From NCBI RefSeq assembly GCF_030704535.1, contig NC_081811.1:2992501-3056500 (forward strand): a DNA stretch of 64,000 nt, in the 5' to 3' direction. A program made the translations under genes and the position numbers. Position 1 is the stretch's first letter. Each line of letters begins with the position of its first letter. Below are positions 3,259 to 57,000 of the stretch, in pieces. The DNA comes from Vitis vinifera (lineage: Eukaryota > Streptophyta > Magnoliopsida > Vitales > Vitaceae). The notes beneath the pieces were generated by a model. The model had not been told where the DNA came from. It searched no databases and worked only from the letters and a program-made list of their open reading frames with translations.

Positions 3259-4773
3259 CATTCCATTCTATCTGATGTTGTCATAAGGGAATTAAGGAAT
3301 AACCTAAAAAAAACAATTGTCGGTCCACTTAACAACCATGTGAAAACGAATGGGAGACAAAAGTAGACCATATAAGTTATATTACGATATTGACTTCTTA
3401 TAATGGAATAAGTTGTTAGGGAACCTCAAATCAATAAAAGAACACAAATTAAAGACTTGGATATTGAAAATGTCTCAATTTAGATAAGGGAAGATGACTA
3501 ATTGACAAGGGTCATCAAGGCATTGCATGCAATAGGATAATACCTAGGAATTAAAGTTGAGGTCAAATATGACCGCTTCATTTTTCTTCCTTTTTTTTTT
3601 ATTTAGTGAAGGGCTTTCTCTATTTTGTTTGGAATAGCACCCTTTGAGGACTACTATTTGCTAAAGACCTTATCTAATTTCTTCGAAAGGAATTGTGACT
3701 TTGTGAACACCAAAATAATTAACACCTTACATTAAGATCTTCTTGGAAAATAATTCATACCTTATGGAGCTTTCAAGAAAGTAGAGTGTAGATCCTATTC
3801 ATGTCCCTTTGTTGCAAGGGACATTTACTCATTTTTATTGGCTCTTAAATTGCTAGAGGCTCCTTAGATCCGCTTCTCTTCCAACTTCGACTCCTCAAGG
3901 GTAGCATTCATGGCCATCATCACTGGTTTCTCTTGATTTTTCTTTGTTCTTGGTATTGTTTAATAGATGTTGATTGTTGTTCCTCCCCATCCAAGAATCT
4001 CCTTATGCTCTAAGTAGGAGAGTTAGAATGAGCATGCCAATTAGATTGTTCAAATTTTACCTTTTATATCTTCCTTCATATTTTCAAAAGCCTAGACTTG
4101 TTCTTCTGGATCTTCATTAATCCCATTTAAGGAGAAAAGCTTCTTAAATAAAGACTTTTTTTCTCTCTTTCTTTTCTTTCTCCCCCTTTTTATCATATTG
4201 TTGATTGAAAGAGGATAGACACTATCCATCGAGTAAAGATCGGGCGTGCCACAGTGATTCACGTGGTTTATGGCCTCTTCAAGAGTTGCTAGTCAAATTA
4301 TTGCACGAGTTCTAGTTGTTGCACTGCAGGCTATTTCTTGGCTTCCCATGTGTGATTTACACTTCTTATTGCTCCCATACATCCTTGAACATAATGAATC
4401 AAGTATGAATGGATCATTTAGTTAAGCGATTCTTCGATTGGTTCCGTTCACTTATCCCCTCACCCCATTGTTCATTACTAGGTAGAGTGGTAAAGCTACA
4501 GGGTGTTCAGCTCTATAGACGTGTGTTTGCCCCAGCAACCTAATGGTTGTTCTCTTTTTAGGGACGAGTGCTTGGTTGTTTTGAGTTTCCTTTTCCTCAA
4601 CCAATTCGATCGTGCCAATCCGTCTAACATTTTGTTATGAAATTATATGAAGATGAATTGAAGGTAAGATAGATCTGACTTTTGAGTTCCACTGGCATAA
4701 GATTTGTGATCAACCATGGGGATATTCTACCCTTTCCCATGTGGGCAAGAAATGACCACTGAAATAATAAATC
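3259..4773. other. No gene seen
   Basis: Moderately AT-rich sequence beyond the gypsy LTR. I see no open frame, RNA gene or clear element ends. It could contain old retroelement remains, but nothing specific supports that. Confidence 0.5.
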
Positions 4774-5489
4774 AAGAACATCGGAAGAAGAAATATAAAT
4801 CAAGAACTAAAGAAGTTCAAGAATCCAATTAAAACAAAAAAACCTTAAAATCGATACAAAAGAACAATTTTCAGAGACAAATTCTGAAAAAACAGAAGAT
4901 AAATTAAATAGAGAGAACTCCTGGTTTTTCACATTTTCCTTCCTTTCCGACGAAGATACATCAGAAGAAGAAATATAAATCAAGAACTAAAGAAGTTCAA
5001 GAATCCAATTAAAACAAAAAAACCTTAAAATCGATACAAAAGAACAATTTTTAGAGAGAAATTCTGAAAAAACAGAAGATAAATAGAGAGAACCTCCTGG
5101 TTTTTCACATTTTCCTTCCTTTCCGACGAAGATACATCACAAGAAGAAATATAAATCAAGAACTAAGAAGTTCAAGAATCCAATTAAAACAAAAAAAAAA
5201 CCTTAAAATCGATACAAAAGAACAATGTTCAGAGAGAAATTCTGAAACAACAGAAGATAAATAGAGAGAACTCCTGGTTTTTCACATTTTCCTTCCTTTC
5301 CGACGAAGACACATCACAAGAAGAAATATAAATCAAGAACTAAAGAAGTTCAAGAATCCAATTAAAACAAAAAAAACCTTAAAATCGATACAAAAGAACA
5401 ATTTTCAGAGAGAAATTCTGAAAAAACAGAAGATAAAATAGAGAGAACCTCCTGGCTTTTCACATTTTCCTTCCTTTCCAACGAAGATT
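4774..5489. repeat. Four-copy tandem repeat, unit about 178 bp
   Basis: The marker AGAAATATAAATCAAGAAC recurs at about 4790, 4970, 5146 and 5323, giving periods of 180, 176 and 177 bp. Each unit also has CCAATTAAAAC, ATCGATACAAAAGAACAA and a pyrimidine-rich CACATTTTCCTTCCTTTCC. Copies differ by few substitutions and by A-tract length, so the array is recent. On the minus strand it lies downstream of two snoRNAs and could be in the same transcript. No rRNA complementarity longer than about 8 nt was found in the unit, and it is not coding. Confidence 0.92.
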
Positions 5490-5582
5490 TCTGCATCGAA
5501 CACAATTTTGCAAGAGGAGAAATACTTTAAAGAAAAGGATCAGGATGAAAAACCAAGAAAAACAAAAATGAAAATGATAGCA

Positions 5583-5659
5583 GCATCGATCAGATAATTG
5601 TAGTCTGATTTATTAAGTCGACATCATGGTTTCCGCATTCGATATCATCATTTCAATGC
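5583..5659 (-). ncRNA. Box C/D snoRNA, predicted 25S rRNA 2'-O-methylation guide
   Basis: On the minus strand the RNA starts GCATTGA, has box C ATGATGA (5651-5645), an internal C'-like ATGATGT (5627-5621) and box D CTGA (5593-5590), and ends TCGATGC. The two ends form a 7-bp terminal stem with one G-U pair. The 12 nt CAGACTACAATT, two bases above box D, is complementary to AATTGTAGTCTG, which occurs near the 5' end of plant 25S rRNA (from memory of the rRNA sequence). The box D+5 rule points to the first U of AAUU in that site. Size (77 nt), boxes, stem and antisense element all fit the class. No good D' box is visible. I cannot assign a named snoRNA. Confidence 0.85.
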
Positions 5660-5773
5660 TCTGGAAAGCATCTATTGAAATAAAACCTAAAAAGAAAATC
5701 TTCGGGAGAAAAATATAACCAGAAAACAAAAAGGAAAAAACAAAAAAAAAAGAAGAAGAAAAAAGAAAGAACA

Positions 5774-5859
5774 GAGGCTCAGAAGGATCCATTGGTGTTT
5801 TATAATCATAAGGGATAGATTCCCTCAGAAAATAGGTAGATTTTCAACATCACAGCCCC
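5774..5859 (-). ncRNA. Box C/D snoRNA, predicted 18S rRNA guide (snR41/snoR41Y-like)
   Basis: On the minus strand: terminal stem GGGGCT/AGCCTC (6 bp, one G-U), box C GTGATGT (5853-5847), D' CTGA (5828-5825), C'-like ATGATTA (5809-5803) and box D CTGA (5782-5779). Upstream of box D is CCAATGGATCCT, complementary to AGGATCCATTGG in 18S rRNA, just before the conserved GGGCAAGTCTGGTGCC stretch (recalled). The D+5 rule places methylation on the A of AGGA. This corresponds to the position I associate with yeast snR41 and plant snoR41Y; that name is by target, not by sequence search. No rRNA target was recognised for the D' guide. Length is 86 nt. It lies 114 nt upstream of the second snoRNA on the same strand. 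Confidence 0.88.
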
Positions 5860-6007
5860 CATTCTCAATCCTCAACAATCAAACACAAAGATATATCACC
5901 GTACATACCATAGAGACTGAGAGCTAGAGAGGCATAGAGCTATTTACAGAGAGGCACGGAAGTAGATCTTCTTTAGAGCTATATACAGAGAGTTGCGTTT
6001 GAGCCAT

Positions 6008-6053
6008 GTATATATAATATAGTGGAAACCACTGAGAATTAGGGTTAGGGTTT
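6008..6053 (-). promoter_or_regulatory. Promoter of the snoRNA unit: TATA box and telo-box
   Basis: On the minus strand AAACCCTAACCCT (telo-box, 6053-6041) is followed by a TATATATA box (about 6016-6008), which would start transcription near 5980, about 120 nt before the first snoRNA. A GGGCC motif lies slightly upstream (about 6096-6100). Telo-boxes are known in plant promoters of ribosomal protein and polycistronic snoRNA genes. The arrangement supports independent RNA polymerase II transcription of the two snoRNAs. Confidence 0.65.
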
Positions 6054-6059
6054 CTTGTC

Positions 6060-7830
6060 TGCGCATTCCCAATGGGTGTGCTGAATTACGAAACTGGCCC
6101 TTAATAAAGGCTCACAGCAGTAAAAAACGACGCGACACCGTCACGCCGTTTTCGTTGATATAGTATATAGAATAGCAAAGCCTACGTGTCTTGTGGTCTT
6201 AAGAAATCTGTTTTTAAAAATTTATAACCACGTTGAGCATCGTCTTTTATTTCTAATTTTTAAAAATAAATTGAAATTAAGAATTATTTTTAAAGAATAA
6301 ACTCAATAAAGTATAAATTATTTCCACTATTTTTTTAAAAATAAAATAAAAACGTAGAGAAATCTTAAAAAATTATAAAAATAAAATAAAATTGAATATG
6401 ATATCTTTTTTTTTTTCTCGATGCTCTAATATAAATGCAAAAAAAATATAAAAAAATCTTGGAATATGATTTTCATTCAAATTATATGTGCTTTTTTTTC
6501 TCTCTCTAAATTTCTTTAAAAATTTTTATCAAGTAAATAAATTTCAAATCAAATTATATTTAATACATGAATTTTATTAAATTTAAAAAATAATTTGAAA
6601 TTCAAAAACCCATTTAACTAGTAAAACAAAATTAAATTGAATAATATTGAAAAATCATAACTCAAAATTTATTTTAAATGACTTGATTTGTTTATTATTT
6701 ACCTATATCATATTTTTATAAATTTTTTAATTAGTCAAATAAATTTTAAATTTAGCAAGACTCAATGTTTTTTTATCGGAGGAATGAGGATGTAAAAGCA
6801 ATATCTATATTGAATTAGAGAAATGAATTTTAATTGTCACAATAATTTGATCAAATTGATTGATTAATTGAATTTTGAAAATTTTATTTTAAAAAATTAT
6901 TTTGAATGATTATTACATTGCAAACTAGGTAGATTCATTAAAATTTTAAAATTAGATTTAATGAAATTGAATAGTTACATTGTATAAATAATTGGAAGAT
7001 GATTTAAAATGAATTGCATATATGGTTTAAATTGATTTTTCGGATTAAATGACTTAATTTGAAGAAAAATTGGATCTAGACTTAAAGTTAAATAAAAAAT
7101 TAGTTTAGATGATAATTTAGGTTTTTAATTTAACTTGATGAAAAATAGATCTTGTCATTATATAAATTATTTTCTAAAAAATCCTAACTTTGAGAGTTTA
7201 TTTTCTTTATTAATTTTCTCTTTGTTATACATTTTATTATTCTTTCCCATTTGAAATTATTGTTATTTTTATTTTTCATCACAAATTGCCAACCCAATTT
7301 TACTTTATCACAATAATTTATTTTCTCCCCATTCAAGCCTTAATTGCCAAGATGACACCTAAAAACCACTATACTATGATAGTTTGTACTAAAATAATTT
7401 TTGATCGGGTATAAGTAACTCTAAAACAGTGAATGAGGTTATAAATTGTATTTTGATGTAATAAATTATGAAAAGTCAATCATTTCCTAACGTCATTCCA
7501 CCAAGATGGGAAAAATCAGATTTTTTTTGGGCATCGTATCCTCTACACCTTTCTCACTTCAACTTTAGGAACACCAACCACAACATCTTATATTTATCTC
7601 TTTACAAAGGGATTTAATAATCTTTGTAAGAAAATTGTTAAGAATTCACTGCCATATATGAGAAGGGAAAAGAATTAATATTTTTTTCAAAACTAAAAAT
7701 AAAAATGTTTTCATGTGATTCTTGTTAAAATGTTTTTTTTTGGGTCAGCTTTATGTGTTCCATTGTATCATAAGATGGGTACATCGACATGAGTTATGAT
7801 TAAAAGCCTTTAAAGAAATATTGTTGATTG
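6060..7830. other. AT-rich intergenic DNA
   Basis: Very AT-rich, no open frame of note, no element ends recognised. It begins with the region upstream of the snoRNA promoter. Confidence 0.55.
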
Positions 7831-34200: not shown

Positions 34201-36160
34201 GGAACCCAGCCTGGTGGTTCTGTCCTGGTTTATATCACAAGGGTGTACTAATACCCAAACCAAGAAATATTAGCATATCCATAAACTTTAAGTTTTTAAA
34301 AAATGGGCATGCAATGGCAAGGTTATGAGACCCATAAGTGTGTCTTTTCTATTGTTTTTCTTCTCTTGCTTTTGTTCATCTCCCTGATAAACAGAGTAAA
34401 AGTTGTATTTGTTTACTTGAACATGGACCACACACCATGTTCTCTACACAGTGGCTTCACACATAGAAGTACAGCAGGACTAAAAAGGATTGGCTAGTCG
34501 AGCAGGGACCTTTTGCGCTTAGCGATAAACTTTGGAACATACATCAAGATAACGCTAATATAAAATCTGGGGTGGGATATATTCTCTTTCAATGTAAAAA
34601 CATTAAAGGTGGGATTTGAGAATAAGTTAAAAAAAAAAAAAAAGAAAGGAGGAAAGATAGGTATATGAAATTTTCCTGAAGATTGATTCACATTCTTTGG
34701 CATTCTTCCCCTTAAAATATTTCCATCTGTAGGAGAGGGACCAAGGCCTATTGTTATTATATTCTATTATTTTTTAATCTGCTAGTAATCGTTGTTAAAG
34801 AAAGTTGCCTCATTTAGTAACTTAACGGGCAACATTCTCATCAATTTGTGGATTTGCTTGTGAAGTTGGTGCATGTGGTCCTAATACAGGCGGCAAGCTA
34901 ATCCTTTACTGATAATATTATACTGACCACCTATGCATATAGGAACTTTATTTTTTAATTTTTTTTTATTGGATGGATTTAGACAAAAGCCACCCAATAA
35001 TTAACCATCCAAACCCATTCCCTAGAACTAGTCTTTATAGGAAATGATGTTGTTTGTATTTATGATTGGATACACTTGATACTTTTGTGGTAAAAATTCA
35101 TGGCAAGGATGAAGAACTTCTGTGACTTTTTGCCGCTTAATGTTTGTTCTGGTGTAAATTTAAAGTTATAAACCCTCAAAAGAATCGAGTCAAATTTCAG
35201 TAGAGGGTATGGTATCAAATAGTTCCTCACTTTTTCATTGTTTTTCTTGGAACCTTTGATTTGCCAGATTATCATATACATGATATTGAAGCCTATGGAC
35301 CTCTAACTAATGCCAGCTTACTTAAGCAAGACAAATCTTAGTTGATAAAAAATTGCACATTCTAGCCGACACTTTAGTAGACAATCTAAAATGAACTACA
35401 AGGAGTCATTTTCACAAAGTTAGAGTGAGGGGGGGAATGTATTAAGGCATAATCATGAATAGGACAAGTAAACTAATACACACCAAATAATTAGTTCACC
35501 TGATTCACAACCAACTCGGCCATGAACCGACTGCCAAATGTCGAGATTATGTAAGCTATAAGATCACAATCTTCAGGCAAATGGGCATTATTTAATTTAC
35601 TAGGTGATCCAGAGTTTCAGGACTAGGCCATGACCTTTCTAATTTTAATTGGAAAGCGAAATGCTTTGCCTTTGTATAGAGTGACATAATCTCATGTAAA
35701 AACCTCAGTATTAGGTAATCCAACACTAGGGTTTCTAATCAATGGTTAGCAGGTTCTTTTTAGGTATAGTTTTGGTTGTGTTTAGGGTTCTATCAGCACA
35801 CGTGCACATATATAGTCCACAAGTTTCATACTAATGTTATTATTTTAAACATTCTTAGTTGGAGCTTATCAAGAGAATTAAAGATTAAAGACCAAATGGG
35901 GGGACCATTTGGACTATAATTGAGCTAGTTGTGTCTTTTCTTAAAGCTTTTTAGGGTTTAGATTGCTTCCACAAACCCCCTAAGCATCCATGGTTACCTA
36001 AGAAAAGGAACCTAACTCATGCCAACAATGGAAATTGCCTGCCATTGTGTCCCTCATTGACAATGACCAGGTTGGCGTCATGACTCGCCACGTAATGTTG
36101 TCGAACCTTTGCCATGGACATGGTGCATATACATATAGACATGCACATACACATGTGTGT
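25272..36160. other. Long region without a supported gene
   Basis: Only short frames without domains. Visible structure: degenerate copies of a GTTTGGTTCCTGAGAAAGT-like phrase between 25780 and 26200 (resembling ends of small DNA transposons), a direct repeat of about 45 bp at 31172-31262, and (from about 35.4 kb) the NF-YB upstream region, with a G-box CACGTG at 35799-35804. Part of the region may be an intron of the putative transcript starting near 24985. Confidence 0.45.
31172..31262. repeat. Imperfect 45-bp tandem duplication
   Basis: Two adjacent copies share CATATGT.GCC.AAGGTGT, then ..ACCACC and CTG.CTTTACACC (31172-31216 and 31218-31262). They differ at several positions, so this is an old local duplication. 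No function is evident. Confidence 0.7.
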
Positions 36161-36226: not shown

Positions 36227-36754
36227 ATGGTTGATGATATAGGTACTAATGCAGATAGAGACTATGATCATAAGTATAATTATGCAGGTGGTAGCAGTGT
36301 TTCGGCTGAGGATGGGATCATCAAGGAACAAGATCGATTGCTGCCGATCGCCAATGTTGGACGGATCATGAAGCAGATCCTGCCACCTAATGCAAAAATC
36401 TCCAAGGAAGCAAAAGAAACCATGCAAGAATGTGTCTCGGAGTTCATTAGCTTTGTGACTGGAGAAGCATCTGACAAGTGTCACAAGGAGAAGCGCAAGA
36501 CTGTCAATGGGGACGACATTTGTTGGGCTTTGGGAACTTTAGGGTTTGATGACTATGCTGAACCGCTTAAAAGGTATTTGCATAGATATAGGGAGTTAGA
36601 AGGTGAGAAAGCTAACCAGAGTAAGGCTAGTGAAGAAAATGATGAACCTTCAAATTATAGAGGTGAACCACCAATGAAGCATACAGTTTCACCTGCTCCA
36701 CTGAAGTTCAATGTGCTTGAGAGGAGTAATAGCTCTCTTTCCAAGCGACTTTAG
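36227..36754 (+). CDS. NF-YB: NF-YB (HAP3) transcription factor subunit, NF-YB5-like
   Basis: A single uninterrupted frame of 175 residues, intronless. It encodes the histone-fold B subunit of the CCAAT-binding trimer NF-Y. After a variable acidic/Asn-rich N terminus (1-33) the conserved core runs from about 35 to 127: [35 protein letters not shown], then [20 protein letters not shown] and [17 protein letters not shown]. This covers the DNA-contact start, NF-YC dimer face and NF-YA contact region. The polar tail (128-175) is poorly conserved. The core lacks the LEC1-type residues and most resembles Arabidopsis NF-YB5 (recalled, no search). It would act in the nucleus with NF-YC and NF-YA. All core residues appear intact and a TATA box is suitably placed, so the gene looks functional. 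Confidence 0.95.
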
Positions 36755-39477: not shown

Positions 39478-39885
39478 TGCTCGAGAAGAGAAGTATTGTG
39501 GCTATTCTCACTAGCTGTAGCAGTCTTCTCTATTTTGCTTAGATTTCCATATTTCAAAGCTCGTAAATTATTCCCACTTTTAGCATAGGCTTGTGTGGAA
39601 TATTGAACACCTTATTTGTCCAGCTCAAATTCTTCTTCAAGATATTGTAGTCAACATTTATCAAAACCTTCTTTCCTAATCTAGAGCCCTTCTTCGCTAT
39701 CACCTCAGTCTCACCAATCAAGTGCACCACACTTGCTCGTGACACTCTGTCAATTGCTTCAATATTTTTGTCAACATCCTCTTGGTGCCTTTCTTCATCA
39801 ATTCGCTTTGATTCTTTGCTCTCATTTTCGCCATTAATCAACCCATCTTGTAGCTCTCCAAAAACCATGTCTTTATTACTGTGTA

Positions 39886-40027
39886 TTAATGTTAGGGTCA
39901 TCATCATCTCTTCTCTTATGAACTCCTTCAATCTCTCAAAGGGCTCTTCCTTGAATCGCACATTAGTGTACCCATACATCAGTGTTAATGTTAATGTTAG
40001 GGTCATCATCATCTCTTCTCTTATGAA
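39886..40027 (-). repeat. 37-bp block present twice in the last exon of pseudogene A
   Basis: Positions 39886-39922 and 39991-40027 are identical (TTAATGTTAGGGTCATCATC ... TTATGAA). Copy C has neither block, only the native TCTCTTATGAA-like end at the first site. The second site has replaced native coding sequence. Confidence 0.85.
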
Positions 40028-40387
40028 TCGTTCTTCCATTGGAACCTTGCTTATGGGAAGAGACTTGATGGAGACGAAAACAAGAACTGAATGCAATGTA
40101 GACACATTTTCCATGTAATGCTTGAAGATGGGTGGGATGCCATGAACAATCTTAGAATAGAAGATGGCGAATCCTAGTATTCAACTAAAGTTTGTTATGG
40201 CTACTAATTCCTTCACCATGTCAAGAGAAATCTTGTGATCCAGATCATAATAGTATTTCCTCCGATACACATCATTCCAAATGTACATTATGGCCATCAA
40301 AACTAAGGCAAAGGCCAAGGGTAGATACCCTCCTTGATCAAACTTGTAGAGGACTGAACTTAGATACATAAACTCAATGTTACCAAT

Positions 40388-54038: not shown

Positions 54039-57000
54039 TCAAAGCTCATAAATCATTCCCACTTTCAGCATACGTTTGTGTGGAATGTCAAACACACTCT
54101 CTGCCTGTCTCAAATTCTTCTTCAATATATTATAGCCAACATTTATCAAAACCTTCTTTCCTAATCCGGAGCCCTTATCCGCCATCACCTCAGTCTCACC
54201 GATCAAGTGCACCACACCCGCTTGTGCCGCTCTATCAATTGCTTCAATATCTTTGTCAACATTCTCTTGGCGCCTTTCTTCATCCTCTTGGAGCCTTTCT
54301 TCATCAATTTCCTTTGATTCTTCGGCCTCATTCTCAACATTAATCAACCTATCTTGCAGCTCTCCAGAATCCATGTCTCCAGTGTGTTCTCTTATGAACT
54401 CCTTCAATCTTTCAACCAGCAATCTCTCAAAAGGGTCTTCCTCGAATCGCATGTCGGTGTACCCGTACCTCACCACACACTGGAACACATAAATATCATC
54501 TGGGTCTACCCTGCGGAAGAGGAATCGTTCTTCCACTGGAACCTTGCTTATGGGGAGAGACTTGATTGAGACGAAAACAAGAACTGAATGCAATGCAGGC
54601 ACATTTTCCATGTAATGCTTGAAGATGGGCGGGATGCCATGAACAAGCTCAGAGTAGAAGATGGCCAATCCTGGTATTCTACTAAAGTTTGTGCTCCCTA
54701 CTAATTCCTTCACCACCTCAGGAGAAATCTTGTGATCCAGATCATAATAGTATTTCCTCCGGTACACATCATTCCAAATGTACATTATGGTCATCAGAAC
54801 TAAGGCAAAGGCCAAGGGTAGATACCCTCCTTGATCAAACTTGTAGAGGACTGAACTTAGATACAGAAGCTCAATGCTACCAATGACCACAACATATGAG
54901 ATCACTAGTAGTATATGGGTTTTCCATATCATGATCATCACAAGAACCAGAAATGATGAGGTGAGGGTCATCACGAACACCACCGCAATCCCTACACCAA
55001 CAAAGACTCGCAATCATGATCATTTTGAAACATCACTAAGCTCGAGAAAAGCTGAAAATATGAAAGATGTGGGGTAGATTACCATATGCATTTCCGATCT
55101 TTGTGGTAGTCTTAAACCCTACAGTGACCCCTACACAAGCCAGCATGAGAAGGTAATTGACCTCAGGAATGTACACTTGCCCTTCATACTTAGTCGATGT
55201 ATGCACAATCTTCACTCGAGGAAAGCACCCAAGTGAGAGAGACTGCTGGATAATGGAGAAAGTCCCAGATATCATAGCTTGACTGGCAATGATCGACGCT
55301 GACACAGCCACAACAAACATCGGCCAGTACAGACCATCTGCACCGAAGAAACCCCACCTCAACCAATAAAATAACTATCAAGAAGACAGAAAACAAACTC
55401 TAAAGCCAGAATGCTCACGTGGTATGGACTTGAAGAAAAGGTCAGCAACATCCTGATGGTGTTTCCGGAGAAAGGAGGCTTGTCCAGTATATGCCAATAC
55501 AAGAGCTGGGTATGTGACAGCGCACATACTTATTTGAATTGATCGAACTGTGAAGTGGCCAACATCAGCAAACAGCGCCTCCGTCCCTGCATTTTCCCGA
55601 AAACAATCTGAGAAATTTCTCAAGTTAATGATGGAGGAGAATTGATTATTGATCCAAATCCAAACCTGTTATGGAGAGGACGGCCCCACCAAGGGAAATC
55701 CAGGCTTCTTTCTTGTTCCTTCTAAAGTAATTGATGATGTACTTGGGATTAATGGCTTTAACAACTGTTGGATCAAACTTGATGAAGTTGTAGACCCCAA
55801 TGCCGCTAATTAACGCGAACCAAACACAGATTATTGGAGCAAAACTGTATCCAACTTTGTCAGTTCCAAATCTTTGAACCATGAAAAGACACACCAAGAT
55901 GGCTACTGATATCCAAACAATCCTATCTGTGTCCAAGAAAAAAGTTATTTAACTTTGTCAGTTCCAAATCTTTGAACCATGAAATAAAATTTATTTACAT
56001 TTTTCAACTGAGGAAAAAATAAAAATAAAATAAAATAAAATAAAGAAAGAATGGTGAATAATATGATTATATATAACCATTTAAAAAAAAAACTTATGAT
56101 ATGGGAATTTTTTATTGTATTTAATAATTTAAACTTTTACCTTTTTATCAGTCACGATTGAGAGGACAAGTCAAAATATTATTAAGAATAATTATTCGAG
56201 GATGTTATTGTAAGTTGAAAGGATTATTTTAAATTTGTCAACAGTACAAACCCATTATTTTATTTATTTTCTTTTTCCTTAAAGAGGGTAAAGATTCTAA
56301 GTTAATAAGCCATTGGATTAAACACTTTTGTCTACACTTTACTAGTCAAAATTGGACAATCTGTTTTTTTTATCAATTAATTTGGTTCAATTCAATTTTT
56401 TGTAATTAAAAGGAGTAAAATAATTATAGATTTACAAATCTTAAAAAAATAAAAAAATAACCTACAAAAATGCCATTCCTTTTTTTTTTTTTATTTTAAA
56501 AAAATTATCCAAATGTTAGATAAAAAATTTATTGTAGTAGTTGATTTTAAAAGTTGAGAAAGATTACCTTGTGTCATTGAATCTGTAACTTCCTTGATGC
56601 CACCCACAGCAGATAAAACTATGACATGCAAAGTCAAATATCAAATATACAATAAAAGACTGAAGGACGAAACCCATTTTCTTTGTCAACAAAAATCCAA
56701 CTAAGGTGGTGTTTATATTTTACTTAATTTTTAATAGAACCTTAATACTTAATAATGTTAAATATTAAGTTATTTGTTTTTGTAGTATTTTATTTCTATT
56801 AAATATTAAAAAGTAAAGAAAAACCAATATATTATATTTTTTTATTTAGAAAAAACTATATATTTTGGTTTTTTCTATTTAGTAAAAAGTTTATAATAAG
56901 TTATGAAAAAGTAGAAAAACAAAAACCTAATTTCTGAAAACAAATTGCTTTCAGCAAAAAACCAAAAAAACAAACACCACCTAAATTAATTTGCAGTACC

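Follow-up and report, generated by a model that had tools for sequence, protein, structure and literature searches.

The minus strand between positions 5774 and 5859 of the 64,000-nt stretch of Vitis vinifera DNA analysed here (the window) raises a question of identity and of function: is this short interval, which a first-pass annotation had taken for a box C/D snoRNA guiding modification of 18S rRNA, a true member of that class and, if so, which rRNA positions would it guide and from what kind of precursor would it be released?

An Infernal/Rfam search, which the first-pass annotation had proposed as a check, bears the assignment out. With all of Rfam scanned against the 64-kb window, the interval falls within a match to RF00205 (snoR41; window positions 5862-5772, minus strand) that scores 75.5 bits (gathering score 40; E = 1.3e-12) and runs from position 1 to position 97 of the 97-position model; the Rfam ends are slightly wider than the span first noted. 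Our own scan for C/D genes returned eight candidates in the window (five on the minus strand, three on the plus strand), and the two that lie within 4500-6300 are the two Rfam matches: snoR41 and a neighbor, snoZ155 (RF00326). We take RF00205 and RF00326 to be plant families, and RF00205 and the Arabidopsis SnoR41Y to be one and the same family, the whole model of which is matched by the gene in the window; yeast snR41 and vertebrate U62 are presumably guides for the equivalent 18S site. By its sequence, then, the gene is an ordinary plant gene of a known family with known targets. A plant origin of the window is indicated by these two families, by telo boxes and by ORFs of plant type, one of them for a BIRD-IDD factor. 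A permissive cmscan of 3500-7500 listed seven matches, of which two reached the gathering score. Neither snoR160 nor snoR117 was retained as an extra snoRNA, both being matches below threshold that fall on these two genes, and PyrG_leader, MIR7504 and Plastid-psbA-2 scored far under their cut-offs. ARAGORN found no tRNA across the window.

The explanation that we favor, with a probability of roughly 95%, is that the locus is a plant snoR41 gene, leading a group of at least two snoRNAs that probably share one RNA polymerase II precursor; its product would guide modification of 18S A545 and 25S U1067. It is favored because the Rfam match is full-length and far over the gathering score, because both guides adjoin CTGA boxes and have D+5 bases that agree with the SnoR41Y sites, and because there is a closing stem, a second Rfam snoRNA 113 nt downstream and a telo box upstream. 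Against it, box C ends in T rather than A, box C' is weak, neither a site II nor a TEF1 motif lies within 1000 nt upstream, and the folds of snoR41 and snoZ155 are no more stable than those of shuffled sequences. The features on which the argument turns are collected in Table 1.

Table 1. Features of the snoR41-snoZ155 locus, all on the minus strand (window coordinates).
Feature	Position	Strand	Basis
snoR41 box C/D snoRNA gene (RF00205)	5772..5862	-	cmscan
Closing stem of snoR41, 5' arm, paired with 5779-5773	5854..5860	-	minimum-energy and centroid folds
Box C, GTGATGT (consensus RTGATGA, last base differs)	5847..5853	-	sequence and C/D scan
D' guide of snoR41, 11 positions (10 Watson-Crick, 1 G-U) to ACTTTAAATAGGTAGGACGG, D+5 = U	5830..5840	-	pairing, without chance control
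Box D', CTGA	5825..5828	-	sequence
Box C'-like ATGATTA, weak	5803..5809	-	sequence; alignment with UGAUUGA in the Rfam consensus
D guide of snoR41, 13 positions (12 Watson-Crick, 1 G-U) to 18S rRNA, D+5 = A	5783..5795	-	pairing with 99-nt 18S piece
Box D, CTGA	5779..5782	-	sequence and C/D scan
Telo box AAACCCTAACCCTAA, putative promoter element	6039..6053	-	motif scan, definition from PMC3022908
TATA-like TATATATA, putative core promoter, weak	6009..6016	-	motif scan
snoZ155 box C/D snoRNA gene (RF00326)	5584..5658	-	cmscan, 48.6 bits, gathering score 43, E = 0.00012
snoZ155 D guide, 13 positions (12 Watson-Crick, 1 G-U), D+5 = U	5596..5608	-	pairing to presumed 25S, without chance control

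Boxes C, D', C' and D, claimed from the outset for the minus strand, are all to be found there, with the qualification that box C is one base off its consensus and C' is weak. Comparison with RF00205 shows the same departure (GUGAUGA in the model consensus, GTGATGT in the window gene), and six model positions are absent from the gene, one near the 3' end and the other five in the stretch from box C to the D' guide. The closing stem, likewise claimed, comprises seven pairs in the fold (5860-5854 with 5779-5773, G-U counted), the innermost of which uses the last base of box D; a script count also gave seven pairs – the ceiling of that script – in the same register, shifted one step outward. Box C near the 5' end, box D near the 3' end and a terminal stem make up the arrangement by which box C/D snoRNAs are recognized. 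Overall fold stability is unremarkable for snoR41 (z = -1.41; 21 of 200 shuffles equally good) and ordinary for snoZ155 also (z = -0.23; 77 of 200), although C/D RNAs are expected to form hardly any structure other than the closing stem.

The deviant last base of box C and the weak C' would suit a decayed or silent snoR41 paralogue, the work being done by another copy in the genome, and several paralogues exist for most plant snoRNA families (PMC5122169). Set against this are the intact state of both guides, of boxes D and D' and of the closing stem, and the retention of both the neighboring snoRNA and the upstream telo box; a silent copy is accordingly very improbable, and we continue with a working snoR41 gene as the preferred reading.

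What would such a gene guide? The first-pass annotation had placed a 12-nt guide to 18S rRNA directly above box D. The pairing holds; one T (5783) stands between the 12-mer CCAATGGATCCT (5784-5795, minus strand) and box D, and since this T pairs as well, as a U-G wobble, the duplex extends over 13 positions. The guide is thus of the expected kind (at least nine pairs adjoining D or D', with the target given by the D+5 rule). The predicted target had been the A four bases into the 18S site AGGATCCATTGG, and the D+5 rule gives exactly that A. The 18S reference for these pairings is a 99-nt piece from locus L001, part of a metagenome-assembled contig, and not a plant 18S sequence. We take the D+5 A of the D guide as the equivalent of Arabidopsis 18S A545, an identification that rests on guide family and base identity rather than on a position counted along plant 18S. 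A545 of Arabidopsis is given in Table 1 of PMC8053127 as 2'-O-methylated, mapped by RiboMeth-seq, with SnoR41Y as its guide.

Given the brevity of boxes C and D and the 400 CTGA sites on the two strands of the window, an accidental fit of short boxes and a 12-mer to 18S has to be considered as an explanation. In a control, the 16-mers upstream of all 400 sites were scored against the 99-nt 18S piece, with G-U pairs allowed and the paired run required to begin no more than 3 nt from the box. Thirteen paired positions were reached at one site only (1/400), which is box D of snoR41; the runner-up, with 11, was also a single site. In the window there is a single copy of the 12-mer CCAATGGATCCT, against a mean expectation of 0.01 per window (100 dinucleotide shuffles). 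Alongside these figures, the E-value of the cmscan match across the whole model makes a chance resemblance untenable, and we put its probability at next to nothing.

The provenance of the 18S piece deserves comment. A contig scan with an 18S pattern gave one locus, L001, a 6207-base part of a contig of 14,207 bases whose title names a Burkholderiales MAG. Of the 400 nt of L001 that were read, the first 99 of the reverse complement are 18S-like, after which the match stops. The piece is called 18S because it contains, letter for letter, an 18S rDNA primer printed in PMC2605565. It lies at one end of the locus (6109-6207) and is eukaryotic 18S; the contig that carries it is most likely a chimeric assembly. 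We presume the piece to be animal-like. Three patterns for ribosomal RNA run over viral contigs returned 0 matches each.

A second guide, adjoining box D', had not figured in the first-pass annotation, nor had the snoZ155 gene or the promoter-like elements. In the duplex between this D' guide and ACTTTAAATAGGTAGGACGG the base adjoining box D' is unpaired. The target string, which was chosen because it fits, is assumed to be a piece of 25S rRNA, with position 1067 assigned rather than counted. The same 20-mer has been printed as miR1310 (PMC4444200). For Arabidopsis SnoR41Y, Table 1 of PMC8053127 gives 25S U1067, likewise mapped by RiboMeth-seq, as the second site. The D' guide of snoR41 looks usable and would fit this published target: the two SnoR41Y sites, 18S A545 and 25S U1067, agree with the D+5 bases of snoR41, A for the D guide and U for the D' guide. 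No run of at least nine positions was found when L001 was searched with the D' guide.

The snoZ155 match spans the whole RF00326 model on the same strand as snoR41, and scan and fold locate a C box (ATGATGA, 5651-5645), a D box (CTGA, 5593-5590) and a closing stem. The two bases adjoining box D are unpaired in its D guide. We take the paired stretch, again picked for its fit, to be plant 25S rRNA and its D+5 U to be position 144. Against L001 the snoZ155 guide gave only a nine-position run with two G-U pairs, which was taken as chance. As to the 25S site, U144 is listed as methylated with SnoR36 as its guide (PMC8053127).

Both putative promoter elements, the telo box and the TATA-like sequence, are found some 150-190 nt upstream of snoR41. 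Strings of the telo-box type recur in the window, with 28 overlapping matches on its minus strand and nine on its plus strand, and this AT-rich DNA holds many TATA-like 8-mers (173 minus, 175 plus): for these reasons a promoter of the snoR41-snoZ155 pair is plausible, and its elements are called putative. In the 1000 nt upstream (5863-6862) neither strand carries a site II (TGGGCY) or TEF1 motif. Among 40 non-intronic Arabidopsis snoRNA loci, PMC3022908 reports a telo box at 37 and a telo box together with site II or TEF1 at 34; because 34 of 40 loci carry such a motif with the telo box, site II and TEF1 are frequent but not required. Of the marks of a plant polycistronic snoRNA gene the locus shows two snoRNAs close together on one strand and a telo box upstream of the first, and it lacks a site II or TEF1 motif accompanying the telo box. 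Elsewhere in the window, a cluster of telo-box strings (35734-35961, minus strand) lies near an ORF (36227-36754, plus strand) with an NF-Y/histone-fold domain.

The two snoRNAs might instead derive from a spliced host transcript, processed out of one of its introns, a question about the precursor alone that leaves the identity of snoR41 untouched. Inspection by eye, without scoring, picks out a 5' splice-like GGTATGT at 5909-5903 and, recurring in repeat units at 4774-5488, pyrimidine-rich stretches ending in CAG; intronic snoRNA genes are, moreover, frequent in rice (PMC3022908). Against this, between 3371 and 9492 there is no ORF of at least 150 aa, and the nearest upstream ORF on the minus strand, which encodes a BIRD-IDD factor (one of nine ORFs of at least 150 aa given to Pfam), is 3.6 kb away. 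The telo box and TATA-like element close upstream also speak against an intron. An intronic origin is therefore unlikely, if less so than a silent copy, and an unspliced polycistronic precursor is preferred.

Just downstream of the snoRNA pair, positions 4774-5488 consist of a roughly 178-nt unit repeated four times in tandem (94% matches), each copy carrying, as judged by eye on the minus strand, a pyrimidine-rich stretch that ends in CAG. Neither an RNA family at threshold (cmscan) nor a C/D candidate (own scan) was found in these repeats. That snoR41 and snoZ155 together with this repeat 3' flank form a lineage-specific precursor, in which the repeats act in splicing, termination or processing, is a speculative idea to which we give little credence.

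The family membership, boxes, closing stem and 18S pairing observed at the locus suggest the following course of events, in which start site, joint transcript, processing, expression and methylation in this plant are all predictions. RNA polymerase II, starting near 5985 and moving leftwards on the minus strand, would make a precursor containing snoR41 and snoZ155, and this precursor would be trimmed to the two mature RNAs. Each mature RNA would then assemble with the C/D proteins, including the methyltransferase fibrillarin, which would methylate whichever rRNA base pairs with the fifth guide nucleotide upstream of D or D'. In this way the D guide of snoR41 is predicted to direct 2'-O-methylation of 18S A545 (Arabidopsis numbering), and the D' guide that of 25S U1067.

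The importance of the locus is limited to annotation: a search centred on proteins could overlook both of its non-coding genes, and the rRNA sites predicted for them are open to checking. The first-pass annotation remarked in general terms that genes of this kind often escape notice; here Rfam found snoR41 directly. Knowledge of C/D snoRNAs is unchanged, both Rfam families being curated and the Arabidopsis SnoR41Y and its pair of sites already in print (Table 1 of PMC8053127).

Further protein-coding features were seen in the window. A minus-strand ORF at 956-2056 (366 aa) carries a retrotransposon gag domain (PF03732). Two others on the same strand, at 39554-40114 and 54039-55013, carry the C-terminal domain of K+ transporters (PF22776) and possibly represent a pair of related transporter genes, separated by about 14 kb.
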